A DNA stretch of 34,627 bases, taken from assembly GCA_949299395.1 (NCBI GenBank), contig CASGAB010000015.1, forward strand, positions 1 through 34,627, given 5' to 3'. This DNA comes from an uncultured bacterium (lineage in GTDB: Bacteria > Bacillota_I > Bacilli_A > RFN20 > CAG-826). The position numbers and the translations under genes were made by a program. Numbering within the stretch: position 1 is the stretch's first letter; each line of letters starts with the position of its first letter. The notes below the pieces were generated by a model, which saw nothing but the letters and a program-made list of their open reading frames with translations, had not been told where the DNA came from and ran no database searches. Below are positions 4,589 to 31,819 of the stretch, piece by piece.

Positions 4589-5221
4589 TTATAAGTTTTT
4601 ATACATTATGATTTGAATTTCTTTAACGATATCACGACATTTATCGGTAACATATTCAAAATATGAATAAATCTTTTCGCTCATTACAATATCCATATAG
4701 TTTGTAATGTTTTCTTTATATAAATCACGAACATTTACTTCATAAAGTTGATCAACTTCTTCTTCAATATTAATAACTTTATTTAATAATGGATCCATAA
4801 CCTTTTTATTTGAGATTTTATCCATTTGATCTAAGATCTCTAATAATGATTCAATAGCTTCTTTTGTTTTAGAAATAAAGATTGAAGTATTTGCAGGAAT
4901 TTTTTGATAGTTTCTAATATAAAGTTTATAAGATATTTCATCGATAGAGTCAGTTAAATCATCAATTTTATCTAAAAGTAAGAAAATATCTTCTCTATCA
5001 ATTGGAGTAATAAATTCTTTAGCAAGTCTTTCTTCAAATTCATGTTTTTTTAAATCAGCATTGTGTTCAATTTCATGAACACTATTTTTTAAAACAATTA
5101 AATTATTAGGATCAAAATTATTTAATCCTTCCTCAAGTTTAGTGATTGCATCTTTTGCATAAGTAGCTAAGATTTGAAATGATTCGAAGAAATAATCTTT
5201 CTTTTTCTTAAAAATTCCCAT
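4589..5221 (-). CDS. DUF47 / PhoU-like phosphate transport accessory protein
   Basis: A 210-residue, almost wholly helical cytosolic protein. It has the regular heptads and acidic clusters of the DUF47 (Pit accessory) family, structurally related to PhoU. Diagnostic stretches are EIEHNADLKKHEFEERL (about residues 49-65), then FITPIDREDIFLLLDKIDD, the best-conserved part of the family. It lies 19 bases downstream of the Pit gene and shares its transcript, the standard arrangement in which DUF47 modulates a Pit permease. RBS AAAAGGAGA precedes the ATG. Family call is secure; the regulatory role is known for relatives, not shown here. Confidence 0.92.
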   Translation of the reverse strand: MGIFKKKKDYFFESFQILATYAKDAITKLEEGLNNFDPNNLIVLKNSVHEIEHNADLKKHEFEERLAKEFITPIDREDIFLLLDKIDDLTDSIDEISYKLYIRNYQKIPANTSIFISKTKEAIESLLEILDQMDKISNKKVMDPLLNKVINIEEEVDQLYEVNVRDLYKENITNYMDIVMSEKIYSYFEYVTDKCRDIVKEIQIIMYKNL

Positions 5222-5240
5222 AAACTTCTCCTTTTATTTA

Positions 5241-6335
5241 TTAAAATGCAGCAATAAATATCAGCGCAAAAATATATCCAATAATTCCACAACCTGGGAA
5301 AGTAAATAACCACGTCAAAACCATTTCTTTAGCCGTGTTCCAATTAACCTTTTTAATTGAACGAGTACAGCCAACACCTAAAATAGAAACCGATTTAACC
5401 TGAGTTGTTGAAACTGGAATTCCTAAATAGGTAGAAATAAAAATACCAATTGCACTAGTAAAATCAGTAGCAAAACCTTGATAAGATTCAAGATTTACCA
5501 TGCCCATACCAACTTTTTTAATAATTCTATATCCACCAATTGAGGTTCCAAGTCCCATAATTAAAGCGACAATTACCGCTAAATACCATAATGATACATC
5601 ACCAGAAAATTCGGTATTCATGATGTTTGTATTAAATTCTTGGTTATATAAATTTGCGGCTAAATTTAAAGCCATAAACATAACACCAATAAACTTTAAG
5701 CCATCTTGGGCACCATGAACATAAGCCATTCCTGCCCCAGAAGCAATTTGAGCATATTTAAAGAAAGGTCTGGTTTTATTTCTATTAACTTTTCTAAATA
5801 TCAATTCAATCAGTTTTGTTAATAAATAACCAACAATAAAACCAAATAAACAGGAAATAATTAAGCCATAAATTGTTTTTGCCCAAGAACTATCCCATCC
5901 AAAAGGAATTGTTGCATCTTTTCCCATAGTTATTGCAGCAAGTCCAGCACCCGTAATTCCAGCAATTAATGCATGAGATTCACTAGAAGGAATACCAAAA
6001 ATCCAAGCTATAACTCCCCAAGCAATAACTCCGATCATTCCAGCACATAAAGCATTTAAAGCCATTCTATAGTCACTACCAAAATCAACCATATCAGAAA
6101 TAGTATCGGCTGTAGCGGTAGTTAAAAAATACATAGTAAAAACACCTAAAAAATTGAAGATTGCTGCCATAATTATCGCGCTTCTTGGTTTTATTGCTTT
6201 TGTAGAAATACAAGTAGCAATAGCATTAGGTGCATCGGTCCAGCCGTTAATAAAAATAACGCCAAAAACTAAAAATAAAGCAACTCCTAATATTGGATAA
6301 ACTCTAATAAGTTCAAAAACTTGACCGAAATCCAT
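5241..6335 (-). CDS. pit: Low-affinity inorganic phosphate transporter, Pit/PHO4 family
   Basis: A 364-residue membrane transporter that moves metal-phosphate complexes or phosphate with protons. The duplicated PHO4 fold is visible: the N-terminal repeat has GWTDAPNAIAT (about residue 31 on) and GIPSSESHALIAG, and the C-terminal repeat has the matching GIPVSTTQVKS. About ten hydrophobic helices are separated by a charged central loop (FRKVNRNKTRPFFK). The DUF47 gene follows after 19 bases. No Shine-Dalgarno precedes the ATG; a TATAAT on the minus strand lies roughly 30 nt upstream. Family is clear; ion coupling cannot be read from sequence. Confidence 0.95.
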   Translation of the reverse strand: MDFGQVFELIRVYPILGVALFLVFGVIFINGWTDAPNAIATCISTKAIKPRSAIIMAAIFNFLGVFTMYFLTTATADTISDMVDFGSDYRMALNALCAGMIGVIAWGVIAWIFGIPSSESHALIAGITGAGLAAITMGKDATIPFGWDSSWAKTIYGLIISCLFGFIVGYLLTKLIELIFRKVNRNKTRPFFKYAQIASGAGMAYVHGAQDGLKFIGVMFMALNLAANLYNQEFNTNIMNTEFSGDVSLWYLAVIVALIMGLGTSIGGYRIIKKVGMGMVNLESYQGFATDFTSAIGIFISTYLGIPVSTTQVKSVSILGVGCTRSIKKVNWNTAKEMVLTWLFTFPGCGIIGYIFALIFIAAF

Positions 6336-23944: not shown

Positions 23945-24008
23945 ACTTATATATTTATATATATCAAATATATATACTCGTTGATTATAAATAAAATCTT
24001 ATATAAAA

Positions 24009-24038
24009 ATAAAGAGGGAAGACCAAGTTGGTCTTCCC
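24009..24038 (-). terminator. Terminator after the pilin-like gene
   Basis: GGGAAGAC-CAAGTTG-GTCTTCCC (24016-24038) is a strong 8-11 bp stem; on the minus strand it is followed by TCTTTATTTTT. Separates the pilin-like gene from the PfkB gene. Confidence 0.9.
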
Positions 24039-24068
24039 TTTAGGGGTTTTTATCTACATAACTTAGAC

Positions 24069-26720
24069 TTAAGTTAATAGATGGAAATTGGAAGATAATA
24101 ATAACTTTAAAACATTAATATCAAAGTCTGCAGCAGATTTTAATTTTGTAATGTCAAATAAATCTGGAGTATCTCTATAATCTGTATTTACTACATAAGT
24201 ATCAATATTTTGACCTGTTTTAACATTTAAAACTGGATATTTAACAACAAATTTAACACCATTTGCGAAGATAGTTTCCATATTAATATCATTAAAAGCC
24301 ATCATTAAGAAACCAAAATTAGTATTAAAAGTTTTATCTTCAAGATTAATTGTATGAGACGAAGTTGAATCTAATTCAATTAATCCATCAAGTGATTTAG
24401 TTTTAATAACTGCTTTTGAGCCATTCTTTAATTCAATCTTTGCATCTTCGGTTGAAGTTATAAGTTTACTAACTGGATGATTAGCGGCATTTTTAACAAA
24501 GTTACCATTACGATCTTCATAACCTGAATTAAAATAATCTCTTTCCATTAAATTGATTTGAGAAGTTTGATTGATAGCAAGAGTTGCATTATTTACACTA
24601 ATCTTACTTCCTGGATAGAAAATGTATTTGTTGTTAAGAGTTAAAGATGAATTTTCATTTAAGATAAATTCGAAATTAAATAATGGTAAGTTGAATAATT
24701 TTGAATCTAATGGATAGAAATTTGCACCAAATAATAAATCAAATAACGTATTAAATCCATCTGCAGCAGCTTCAAAATATTCGATTTCAACAGGTGCATT
24801 ATTGTCAGTTACATCACCATTAAATTTGAGCTTTGTTTTTCCATCTTCAAAAGATTTAACAACAGGATGCTCTTCCTGATTACTAGCACGCGGTTCAAAT
24901 AAACCTTGCTCAATTTCTCTAGAATCAGATTTCAAAATAGGGATAACCAATTTAGTTGGTTCAAAATCGTCTGTTCCTGCGAGAATAGCAGAAACAGCTG
25001 CTAAAACATCTGACTTATCCTTTAATTTTGGTGCAGTTAAAACTGCAACACCTTGATATGATGCTTCTTTTTCAAAATTAATATCATTTTGAATTCTTTC
25101 CAATGTGAAATTGTTGAAAGGGAATTGTTTTGCAAAGAAATCTTTTTTAATTTCTAGGAATAATTTTGGTTCGTTTTTCATAAGATCCTTTAAACTGGAT
25201 CCAGCACTTAAAGCATCTTTTTGAAACATAGCACCATAAACAAGTAATGCAGAAGAATCAATTGAACCAAGAACAATAATATCTTGAGCCTCAGCAAAAT
25301 TAGCCATTAAGGTAGTAACATAGCCTTGTAAACCTGGCCAATCATAAATATCCATTTTTTCATCAACATTAGATCCGGTATTAGCATTAATTTCACCAGT
25401 TCCATTAATCATTCCATAAACTGATAATGATGCATCTTTATTTAAGTTAATAGTTCCGTTATTTTCGATTTTTGCATAATCAGCTTTATTAAATTCACCA
25501 TTAACACCAGTTACATAAATATCGCCATCAACTTCAAAATTTACACCACTTTCAATAACTAATGTTGAATAACGGTTTTCATTAGAATTGTCTACAACAT
25601 TAATATCCCAATTATAACGGTCTGTATCTTTATCAAAATTTGTAATCATTTCTTCGTTTGAAGGAATGATTAAAGATAAATTTGCAGGAATATTAGTATT
25701 TTTATCAATCTTTGTTTCACCTTCTTTGAGTGTAAGATTGACATCGCCATCAATTTTTGAAGCAGCAGCTAAAGCATCTTCAAAATCACTAAACAAATAT
25801 AAATCTTTTTTCGATTCTACTTTGTAATAATTAGGAATTTTATATCCATCGATTTTTGGAGATAATTTATTAAATCCTCCTATAGTAATCTCATTAGTAG
25901 CATCATAAATTTTTCCATTTTCATCTACATATTCAAAAACATTAATTTTTTTACCCTCTATTTCTATTTCGTGTGGAGGTAAAAAGATTTTTTTACCATC
26001 AAAATAAGATCTTGTTTTACCAGAAATATTAACTTCTTTAAATAAAGTTCCTTCCTCTAATTTACGATTCATTTCAACTAAATCTATAGGTTCATCAACA
26101 TTGAATGTCCAATAATTGTTTTTAGTTGTACTTTCATCTCCTGCAAAAACAGCATTATTTACTTCGTCAATATTTTTATAAATATCTTCATTAATTTTTA
26201 AAGAAGAGAAATCAAATTCGCTTGTATATTTTATAGTAGCGCTTCTTGCTTTACTACTAACTGTTTCTTTAGCAAAAGAAATATCAAAGGTTGAATAATA
26301 ACCATTTGTTGAAAGTAAAAATACTACTTTTGAGAAATTATTTGTAGTATCTGCTTCATTAGAAAAATAAGGTATACCATTTCCGTCAAATAATGCGAAA
26401 TTAAGATTAACACTTAAACCTTGATCATAAGTATATGTAATAAAATCTGCTAAATATTCTTGAGTTTCATCAAGTTTAGCATCTTCTGCGGAGCCCCATC
26501 TAACATCGTTACGATTGTTATATTCAAGTAAGCTCCAAGTAGTAAAAATAGTTTGGACTTGTTTCATTTCAGCTTGTAACTTAGCTTTGTTAGCACTATC
26601 AGTCACACCAAAATAGGTGGCAACACTAACTCCCGCCAAAACAGCGATAACAGCGATAACTACAACAAGCTCTACTAACGTAAAAGCTTTAGTAATTATC
26701 TTCTTTATTTTTCTTTTCAT
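24069..26720 (-). CDS. Giant type IV pilin-like (class III signal) surface protein
   Basis: An 883-residue protein. The N-terminus is a prepilin leader: 12 residues rich in Lys/Arg, then cleavage context KA|FTLVE with the Glu at mature position 5 (Glu17), and a hydrophobic helix VVVIAVIAVLAGVSVATYF. Position -1 is Ala, not the usual Gly. The ~60-residue pilin N-helix (ANKAKLQAEMKQVQTIFTTW) is followed by more than 700 residues with many short beta-strand units (for example NLTLKEGETKIDKNTNIPANL, IENNGTINLNKDASLSVYG), suggesting a beta-solenoid passenger. Ordinary pilins are 130-200 residues. No pilus assembly genes are in the window. RBS GGGGGT is good. Likely an envelope-anchored adhesin or pseudopilin; exact role unknown. 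Confidence 0.85.
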   Translation of the reverse strand: MKRKIKKIITKAFTLVELVVVIAVIAVLAGVSVATYFGVTDSANKAKLQAEMKQVQTIFTTWSLLEYNNRNDVRWGSAEDAKLDETQEYLADFITYTYDQGLSVNLNFALFDGNGIPYFSNEADTTNNFSKVVFLLSTNGYYSTFDISFAKETVSSKARSATIKYTSEFDFSSLKINEDIYKNIDEVNNAVFAGDESTTKNNYWTFNVDEPIDLVEMNRKLEEGTLFKEVNISGKTRSYFDGKKIFLPPHEIEIEGKKINVFEYVDENGKIYDATNEITIGGFNKLSPKIDGYKIPNYYKVESKKDLYLFSDFEDALAAASKIDGDVNLTLKEGETKIDKNTNIPANLSLIIPSNEEMITNFDKDTDRYNWDINVVDNSNENRYSTLVIESGVNFEVDGDIYVTGVNGEFNKADYAKIENNGTINLNKDASLSVYGMINGTGEINANTGSNVDEKMDIYDWPGLQGYVTTLMANFAEAQDIIVLGSIDSSALLVYGAMFQKDALSAGSSLKDLMKNEPKLFLEIKKDFFAKQFPFNNFTLERIQNDINFEKEASYQGVAVLTAPKLKDKSDVLAAVSAILAGTDDFEPTKLVIPILKSDSREIEQGLFEPRASNQEEHPVVKSFEDGKTKLKFNGDVTDNNAPVEIEYFEAAADGFNTLFDLLFGANFYPLDSKLFNLPLFNFEFILNENSSLTLNNKYIFYPGSKISVNNATLAINQTSQINLMERDYFNSGYEDRNGNFVKNAANHPVSKLITSTEDAKIELKNGSKAVIKTKSLDGLIELDSTSSHTINLEDKTFNTNFGFLMMAFNDINMETIFANGVKFVVKYPVLNVKTGQNIDTYVVNTDYRDTPDLFDITKLKSAADFDINVLKLLLSSNFHLLT

Positions 26721-26863
26721 CTGATACCCCCTAAATTAATAAATAGAAAAAATAAAAAAGTATAAATAAGAAAAGAAAATTAAATATTATTAACTAAAAA
26801 ATATAAAAAATCTATTTATCAATTCTTATTTAATCACTCTACTTTATTTAAATTAATTTGCAA

Positions 26864-26923
26864 GATATTTATCATTGATTAACGACAAAGTTAGCACTAT
26901 TTGTCACTTTAATGATAAATATC
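26864..26923. promoter_or_regulatory. Nested 60-bp inverted repeat in a divergent gap
   Basis: Between the pilin-like gene (minus) and the GPH transporter (plus), GATATTTATCATT (26864-26876) and AATGATAAATATC (26911-26923) are perfect 13-bp arms. Inside them GACAAA (26884-26889) pairs with TTTGTC (26900-26905). It has no T run after it. It could be a large operator or a structured RNA. The symmetry is seen; its role is not known. Confidence 0.55.
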
Positions 26924-27025
26924 GTGACTAATTTACTTTAAATATTTTTAATTGACAAAATGTTGGCTATTGACAATAAAGAAACTATATTTTTTTATAA
27001 ACTAAATAAGTATAATTTTAATAGC

Positions 27026-30064: not shown

Positions 30065-31819
30065 TTATTTATTCATATTTATTAACTTTTTAATAGTTTT
30101 TTTATCAAGTGGAGTAATCATTGAAGATAATTCTTGAATACAATCACTTGTAAAATATTGGATGCCCGAACGATATATTAATTCAATTTCATTGAAAGAA
30201 CGAGCATTAATTTCAATAATTGGTTTTTTATAAGAAACAATTTTTTCTAAGAAGGCATGAGCACTAATAAAGCTTTTTGAATCAGCTTTAACGTTTTCTT
30301 CAAGTTCACAATCAACAAATAAAACATCAATTTGTTCAAATAATTCACGTTTTACATTGAATTCACCTTGTCTCATTAAAATTCCTATTTCATAGCCCTT
30401 AATTTGAGCATCTTTTATTTTTTCAATTACTTCATCCATCTCATCAATATCTAAGAATTCATTAATATCGATTAAAAAGACAATATGTGATTCTTTTAAA
30501 TGAGAAACTCTTGCTGCTTGATCAAGTGAATCTTCTAATTCATCATAATCAATTGGAATAATGAGTTTAGAAAAATAGTTTTCTCTAGCATTAAAATATT
30601 GAGGAATTACTTCTTTCATACATAAAGAAATAACCCCTTTACATTGATTAAATTGTTTACCTGCTCTTTTTAAAGCATCTAAATTTTTAAAATTTTTATT
30701 TTTAATTTTAAAGTCACTATAGTAACCATAATTAATGATTCTATCGCCCTTTATTTGAACTATCGGTCGATAAAGCGCCTCAATTTGACGAGCAGCAATA
30801 ACATTATTTAATTCTCTTCTTAAATTATCACTAGCATTTTTAAAGTTTTCTTCTTTTCTAAATAAACCATATTTAACGTTTTTCTCATAGTTTTCATCAA
30901 TATATTGATATAAAGAGTTATACATTGAACCAAATGAATGAGATAAATCAGAAACAATTCCCCCAATTATTGTATAGTCATATGTTCTATTAAAACCAAA
31001 AGCTTCCATTGTAGCCATAATTGAATTAGAAATATCTTCTAATCTAACTCTAGTATCAGCAATAGTAATGAAATTGGAATCTAATATTCCAATTTCAAAT
31101 GTATCAGGATTTTTAAAATAATATTGAAGAGTATTTTTATCAAATAATTTATATAAGTCGTTAAGAATTAAATAACAGAGTAAACTTTCATTATAAATTG
31201 ATTCAACATCTTCTTTTTTAAAAAAACATATTAAATAAGAAGATCCTTTTGCAAAAAAACCATCTTCATAATTTTTCTTAACTTCTCCTAATTCATAAAT
31301 TGTTTTTTTGCTTCTTCTTTTATTTTTAAATTCTGGAATAGGAAAATTAGATAATTGGAAAGTTTCTAAAAATACAACATCTTGATCTTTTTTAATATCA
31401 ACAATTTTTATTGCAACTCTTCTTAAAATACTATTTGTTCTTAAATCAGTAATTGTAAATAAATCTACATTATCATAATCATATTTATCAAATAGATCAC
31501 CATTATCGAGTTTATTTTTTAACCAAACCTTAACTTTATTTTGATCTTCACTAGAAAAACGTGCTAAAAAATCAACATATGTTTCTTCATCACTTCTTCC
31601 GAGTTCTCGAATATTATATTTTAAAACTTTTTGAGTTCTTAAATTGATTTCAAAATAATATGCTGAATGATAATCTTCATTATAATGTTTAGTATCTCTT
31701 TTTTTACTTAATTTAAAATAAAAAACACTACCTACAGCAAGGGCAGCTAATAAAATTAAGATAATTACAAAAAAGAGAGTAAAATCTGATACATCAATTG
31801 CTAAAATAGCGCCTTCCAT
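30065..31819 (-). CDS. Membrane protein with degenerate GGDEF and EAL domains
   Basis: A 584-residue protein. An N-terminal transmembrane helix (about residues 12-34) is followed by a PAS-like region (about 50-160), then a diguanylate-cyclase-like fold without GGDEF (about 165-330), and finally an EAL-like domain. The latter begins RQIEALYRPIVQIKGDRIINYGYY (about 342 on), which aligns with the usual QPIV-x-G-x-EALLR start but lacks the EAL. Metal-binding LTE, DDFG and KID positions are also lost (LIDIN, GILMRQ, FVDCE). A c-di-GMP sensor or scaffold without catalysis is the best reading. It has a strong promoter (TTGAAA-N16-TATAAT) and no RBS. Confidence 0.75.
   Translation of the reverse strand: MEGAILAIDVSDFTLFFVIILILLAALAVGSVFYFKLSKKRDTKHYNEDYHSAYYFEINLRTQKVLKYNIRELGRSDEETYVDFLARFSSEDQNKVKVWLKNKLDNGDLFDKYDYDNVDLFTITDLRTNSILRRVAIKIVDIKKDQDVVFLETFQLSNFPIPEFKNKRRSKKTIYELGEVKKNYEDGFFAKGSSYLICFFKKEDVESIYNESLLCYLILNDLYKLFDKNTLQYYFKNPDTFEIGILDSNFITIADTRVRLEDISNSIMATMEAFGFNRTYDYTIIGGIVSDLSHSFGSMYNSLYQYIDENYEKNVKYGLFRKEENFKNASDNLRRELNNVIAARQIEALYRPIVQIKGDRIINYGYYSDFKIKNKNFKNLDALKRAGKQFNQCKGVISLCMKEVIPQYFNARENYFSKLIIPIDYDELEDSLDQAARVSHLKESHIVFLIDINEFLDIDEMDEVIEKIKDAQIKGYEIGILMRQGEFNVKRELFEQIDVLFVDCELEENVKADSKSFISAHAFLEKIVSYKKPIIEINARSFNEIELIYRSGIQYFTSDCIQELSSMITPLDKKTIKKLINMNK

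Follow-up and report, generated by a model that had tools for sequence, protein, structure and literature searches.

The window, by which the whole analysed stretch of 34,627 nucleotides is meant, includes a gene for a protein that begins like a type IV prepilin and is about five times longer than one, with 883 residues, the small pilins encoded in this genome having ~180. The locus raises the question of whether this protein can be a pilin, what its long passenger is and where it would act. An earlier note made from the letters of the sequence had described it as a protein with a prepilin signal, Ala rather than Gly at the cleavage site, a beta-rich passenger and no assembly machinery nearby.

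The window gene and its product

The open reading frame of the earlier note is real and lies on the minus strand, which that note had not named, at 24069..26720 (ATG at 26720, stop at 24069). It is preceded by a good ribosome-binding site, AGGGGG (26727..26732, minus strand), 6 nt ahead of the ATG, and a bidirectional terminator-like hairpin is found just behind it (24013..24041). The product is best described as a giant (modular) type IV prepilin.

A class III signal consists of a short hydrophilic leader ending with Gly or Ala, followed by ~21 hydrophobic residues with Glu at position +5. The N-terminus of the window protein, MKRKIKKIITKA^FTLVELVVVIAVIAVLAGVSVATYFGV, has such a leader with an Ala end at -1, the hydrophobic stretch and Glu at +5, and the residues around the cleavage point are KKIITKA^FTLVELVVVIAVIAVLAGVS. 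The predicted leader peptide includes residues 1–12 (MKRKIKKIITKA; 26685..26720, minus strand), with cleavage expected after Ala12. The prepilin signal claimed in the earlier note is borne out by a match to NCBIfam TIGR02532 at residues 11–31 with 21.2 bits, above the cut-off of 16.3. N_methyl (PF07963) is the sole Pfam family on the protein; it scores 20.7 bits on the protein, just below its cut-off of 21.2, and 25.7 bits, above that cut-off, for the same gene in the genome search.

The long N-terminal helix of the mature pilin, residues 13–68 (FTLVELVVVIAVIAVLAGVSVATYFGVTDSANK...; 26517..26684, minus strand), was assigned from a hydropathy of over 2, from alignment by sequence of the solved pilins 8pfb and 9egp with the 50 N-terminal residues of the mature protein, and from an AF2 model. 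In the latter the pilin N-helix, on which the earlier note had made its reading depend, is predicted at residues 15–68 with low confidence (pLDDT about 50). Residues 69–305 (25806..26516, minus strand) are poorly conserved, with pLDDT mostly under 50, and may be the place of a pilin globular head. They are followed by a module, residues 306–735 (24516..25805, minus strand), recognised from alignment, profile and AF2 model as common to other giant pilins and to Sec-type secreted proteins. Within it, a helical insertion at residues 460–530 (25131..25343, minus strand) is found in the window protein alone, as indicated by alignment gaps and low-confidence AF2 helices. The AF2 model of the full-length protein, from an 11-row alignment, is poor (pLDDT 49).

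Ala at position -1 is present as noted earlier, but it is no anomaly. According to a review (PMC10191384), a prepilin leader ends with Gly or Ala. In 13 genomes of the order, 61 distinct pilin N-termini were compared, of which 24 have Ala and 37 have Gly at -1, and among pilins longer than 400 residues Ala (15) and Gly (13) are found in similar numbers. Ala at -1 is thus ordinary in these genomes, and the idea that it casts doubt on the signal was rejected.

Genomic site

The interval between the genes for a PfkB-type kinase and an MFS transporter, in which the gene is located (23945..26959), measures 3,015 bp in the window. In three genomes of the same genus that lack pilins (G003, G014 and G022), the same interval is an empty site of ~90–100 bp, and the flanking kinase and transporter genes are 66–68% identical to those of the window and in the same order. 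These conserved flanks identify the gene as a genuine part of the chromosome, and contamination as its source was rejected. No repeats or mobile genes were seen at the junctions of the occupied site. The gene was either gained here or lost in the sister genomes; as judged from these same-genus sites, gain would be the simpler reading. Elsewhere in the window, a gene at 30065–31819 (minus strand) encodes a 584-residue protein without a Pfam match, whose C-terminal half resembles, by eye, a degenerate EAL domain.

Type IV filament genes in the genome

The statement of the earlier note that no assembly machinery lies nearby holds within the window; the genome, however, contains a complete locus for a type IV filament, on a different contig. 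On contig C4 of the genome (G000; 1.24 Mb, 39 contigs, 97% complete), a compact locus combines genes for two small pilins, with 180 and 186 residues, and for several minor pilins with those for a prepilin peptidase (PF06750, E 1e-21), a GspE/PilB-type ATPase (433 bits) and a GspF/PilC platform protein. The N-termini of both small pilins are nearly identical to that of the window protein and also have Ala at -1. Hence the peptidase, whose absence would have told against the earlier reading, and the ATPase, likewise looked for, are present in the same genome together with the platform protein, as a type IV pilin requires. For the ATPase and the platform protein, GspE and GspF are the best-scoring families, but neither score reaches the family cut-off. 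The PilT-type retraction ATPase that would mark a retractile type IVa pilus was not found in this genome by a search with PF00437, in which only the PilB/GspE-type ATPase and a TadA-type ATPase on contig C20 exceeded the cut-off. The latter gene is followed by genes for two TadB/TadC-like membrane proteins, assigned by eye and from the PF00437 match (L048:7286-9750), and, as judged from their sequences, these Tad-type genes encode another type IV filament system.

Eight other frames of the genome match the same prepilin signal as the window gene, several with near-identical N-termini, so the arrangement seen in the window is no accident. In a genome of the same genus (G005), a 456-residue frame (L050:4812-6182; RGFSIIEVVVSLLLF) fuses a protein of unknown family encoded beside pilins to a minor pilin; it corresponds to two separate genes in the window's genome.

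Giant pilins across the order

The window protein is not alone: four more giant pilin genes are present in its genome. Two of these, for proteins of 929 and 822 residues, lie on C4, the contig of the pilus locus, and two, each with a frameshift, on contig C26 (L047:2500-2560 and 5180-5360). The relative of one of the latter in G005 (L057) is intact; the frameshifts may be due to assembly error or phase variation or may mark pseudogenes. In G005, three giants are encoded inside the pilus locus, on a single contig, and a fourth elsewhere.

Contig searches with the whole window protein gave no matches and those with pilin N-termini mostly ordinary pilins; a search of viral contigs with the N-terminal motif revealed distant pilin-type helices only. 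Since searches with the protein or N-termini were uninformative, whole genomes were searched with a profile of the module. Pilin signals were detected in 17 of 279 genomes of the order, and each of the 13 pilin-bearing genomes read out encodes at least one pilin of over 400 residues, the longest having 1,109. The search for similar large proteins suggested earlier thus yielded giants both in the window's genome and across the order. Their ectodomains are of several types, and the module of the window protein was seen on a pilin leader only in G000, G005, G120 and G121.

A second ectodomain type, recognised by eye from a shared 'HYG...SYHE.G', occurs in giant pilins from further genera in the order (G042, G095, G097, G103 and G232; L051, L089, L092, L093 and L096). 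In G042, contig C16 encodes a 483-residue pilin (L052:12440-13891) with a passenger that matches Pfam Esterase (PF00756, 1.2e-6) and may be, from this match, a pilus-borne enzyme. A neighbouring 551-residue pilin (L052:10779-12434) has a glycine-rich C-terminus (GGGNDGFGGYYGTRIIYIPQ), which gives the impression, and only that, of the variable C-lectin-type targets of diversity-generating retroelements. No literature on giant pilins in RF39-like Bacilli was found.

Family and predicted fold of the module

Residues ~306–735 of the window protein align with other giant pilins. The module profile also matches proteins without a pilin motif, with E-values down to 1e-34 for members that were not used in building the profile. 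The module is present in 49 of the 279 genomes, 42 of which lack any pilin match, and in a few other families of the class. The non-pilin module proteins that were read out have ordinary secretion signals or membrane segments at the N-terminus (Sec-type). The module is therefore not specific to pili, being carried by Sec-type proteins in the 42 pilin-free genomes (as read out), and in the window protein it stands behind a pilin moiety, as in a modular pilin in the sense of PMC8179133. None of 44 module members has a Pfam match, and no match was found to PDB sequences searched with the module profile. Two non-pilin module proteins (L305:7449-10094 in G271 and L306:4031-7600 in G008) give weak matches to Pfam Hint near their C-termini (22–24 bits, below the cut-off), and these ends are possibly a self-processing part.

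The AF2 model of the module alone, from a 44-row alignment, has pTM 0.76 and stretches of short regular strands with pLDDT >90. Its structural neighbours in VIA-align are nearly all right-handed beta-helices, with Z 7–9, and they include among the best the adhesins PfbA of Streptococcus pneumoniae and SRRP of Limosilactobacillus reuteri (Z 8.8 and 8.7, respectively). Foldseek with the same model gave no significant match, none having E below 0.38. The module is thus probably, as modelled, a right-handed parallel beta-helix, and the beta-solenoid passenger proposed in the earlier note is backed by prediction for residues ~306–435 and ~628–725. Values of Z 7–9 are common to all kinds of beta-helix, and pectinases, lyases and phage tailspikes score like adhesins. 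Hence, the fold does not point to one function, and an adhesin reading based on it is weak.

Exchange between anchors and a linked ABC cassette

In G055, one locus encodes both a 446-aa pilin and a 1,097-aa non-pilin protein, the latter combining a plain membrane segment with the module, and the two are homologous over ~370 residues (6e-31). In a tree built from 44 modules, at least two changes between the pilin and non-pilin states are needed, counted on starred branches only, the deep branching being unsettled; the module of the window protein has no firm sister. These data support, at the level of sequence, movement of the module between pilin leaders and Sec-type leaders. As the genomes with the module outnumber those with pilins (49 and 17), the others having it on Sec-type proteins, the module would have been exchanged between anchors at least twice.

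Genes for the module are recurrently accompanied by a cassette for an ABC ATPase, a multi-spanning permease and a large exported protein of about 700–1,020 aa (L046:1826-6767 on C4 of the window's genome, L049:3255-8217, L266:4226-9743 and others). In the window's genome, the exported protein has 805 aa, and one member of its family shows a weak match to Pfam Beta_helix. Of the 279 genomes, 66 encode the exported protein, and these include 46 of the 49 genomes with the module; in 34, the two genes are within 15 kb of each other. Fisher's test of the association gives 5e-33, a value that is descriptive, as it ignores relatedness and the profiles were derived partly from loci of co-occurrence. 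Cassette and module are both found mostly in genomes without pilins. A tentative suggestion, which we hold to be possible and rather short of probable, is that the two belong to a single undescribed surface system of Bacilli with reduced genomes. Its client protein would be displayed by an ordinary membrane anchor in most species, and in a few it would have been transferred to type IV pili in the form of a giant pilin family.

Proposed role and alternatives

The window protein is, on balance, likely to be a modular giant type IV pilin with a filament-displayed beta-helix arm that serves as an adhesin or ligand-binding subunit; its cleavage, incorporation, display and binding are inferred from the features described above. 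It would be inserted into the membrane by the Sec route, and the 12-residue leader would be cut off after Ala12 by the prepilin peptidase encoded on C4. The assembly ATPase and platform protein encoded on C4 would then pack the hydrophobic N-helix into a filament, the main subunits of which are probably the two ~180-residue pilins. The right-handed beta-helix (residues ~306–735) would project from the tip or the side of the filament and act as the adhesin or ligand-binding arm. An adhesin or pilus-displayed role, already put forward in the earlier note, thus remains the leading guess, modular pilins with adhesive modules being established (PMC8179133); the role of a carbohydrate-binding tip is possible and putative.

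Against display on a pilus speak the low-confidence model of residues 69–305, the stretch expected to hold a pilin head, and the position of the window gene, which stands alone among housekeeping genes, outside the pilus locus. An orphan at such a distance would also suit the main rival, in which the peptidase trims the pilin-type helix and the protein remains at the cell surface as an unpolymerised, membrane-anchored stalk. At ~815 residues, the ectodomain is a bulky one for a filament, and relatives of the module are presented from ordinary N-terminal membrane segments, so that surface anchoring alone seems enough. However, conservation of the pilin motif (Glu at +5 and a small residue at -1) is high in genomes where the module follows a pilin leader, several giants are encoded inside or beside a pilus locus, and giants are kept in all pilin-bearing genomes examined in the order. 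We therefore regard the stalk as rather unlikely. A pseudopilus like that of a type II secretion system, with the giants as substrates or tip adaptors for secretion or surface assembly by a system including the ABC cassette, would agree with the lack of a detected PilT-type ATPase, with the GspE- and GspF-like scores and with the closeness of module genes to the cassette. It appears quite improbable, as cassette and module occur mostly in pilin-free genomes, which indicates that the cassette is not tied to a filament, and monoderm cells have no outer membrane through which the piston of a pseudopilus must push.

ComZ of Thermus thermophilus, proposed as a DNA receptor located at the tip of its competence pilus, suggested the same role for the window protein. 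It likewise joins a pilin to a beta-solenoid (PMC6561018) and was found (6qvi) in the Foldseek list of the full-length model at rank 32, a match that is not significant. ComZ was neither among the PDB sequence matches of the window protein nor among the 50 VIA-align entries listed for the module. The window protein is net acidic (D+E 129, K+R 81), and ComEC (PF03772), present in 10 of 14 control genomes, is missing from the 97%-complete genome; owing to the latter absence, the competence receptor was rejected, and we give it hardly any probability.

Relation to known systems

The preferred reading, a modular giant pilin, follows a known principle: modular pilins are widespread, 264 architectures having been counted in 2021 (PMC8179133), and ComZ is a beta-solenoid on a pilin (PMC6561018). 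Like PilB and PilC of Streptococcus sanguinis (PMC8179133), which also come from a monoderm host, the window protein combines a pilin N-helix with a bulky C-terminal module found in non-pilus proteins too, and an adhesion role is proposed here by analogy with them. PilB has 50.5 kDa and a known vWA domain (PMC8179133), whereas the module of the window protein has no Pfam or PDB relative and is a predicted beta-helix; unlike PilB and PilC, the protein belongs to a paralogous set of five giants. With ComZ, which is argued to sit at the filament tip, it would share a large beta-solenoid domain, predicted in the present case. ComZ differs in having 554 residues, a solenoid inserted in the pilin fold, a DNA-binding function and a diderm host (PMC6561018); the present genome has no ComEC, and no likeness to ComZ was found by sequence. 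The right-handed beta-helix predicted here would be shared with PfbA and SRRP, but no sequence similarity to them was found, and they are anchored by other means, not as pilins. The tapirins of Caldicellulosiruptor (4wa0, 6n2b and 6n2c), which are beta-helix surface adhesins, gave only low-scoring structural matches to the window protein or module. Tapirins are associated with type IV pilus genes and are not themselves known to be pilins.

As far as could be found in the collections searched, the unannotated module, the size and number of the paralogues in a small genome, the exchange of anchors and the link to the cassette are new. Modular pilins are known mostly as pilins onto which a recognised domain has been grafted, whereas in this genome of ~1.2 Mb paralogous giants share an unannotated module, which suggests that surveys of annotated domains miss many such pilins. 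The recurrent cassette connects the module with an ABC transporter in a way that can be tested. As the same module can be traced between pilin and non-pilin anchors in close relatives, these bacteria offer a natural experiment on how filaments gain new functions.
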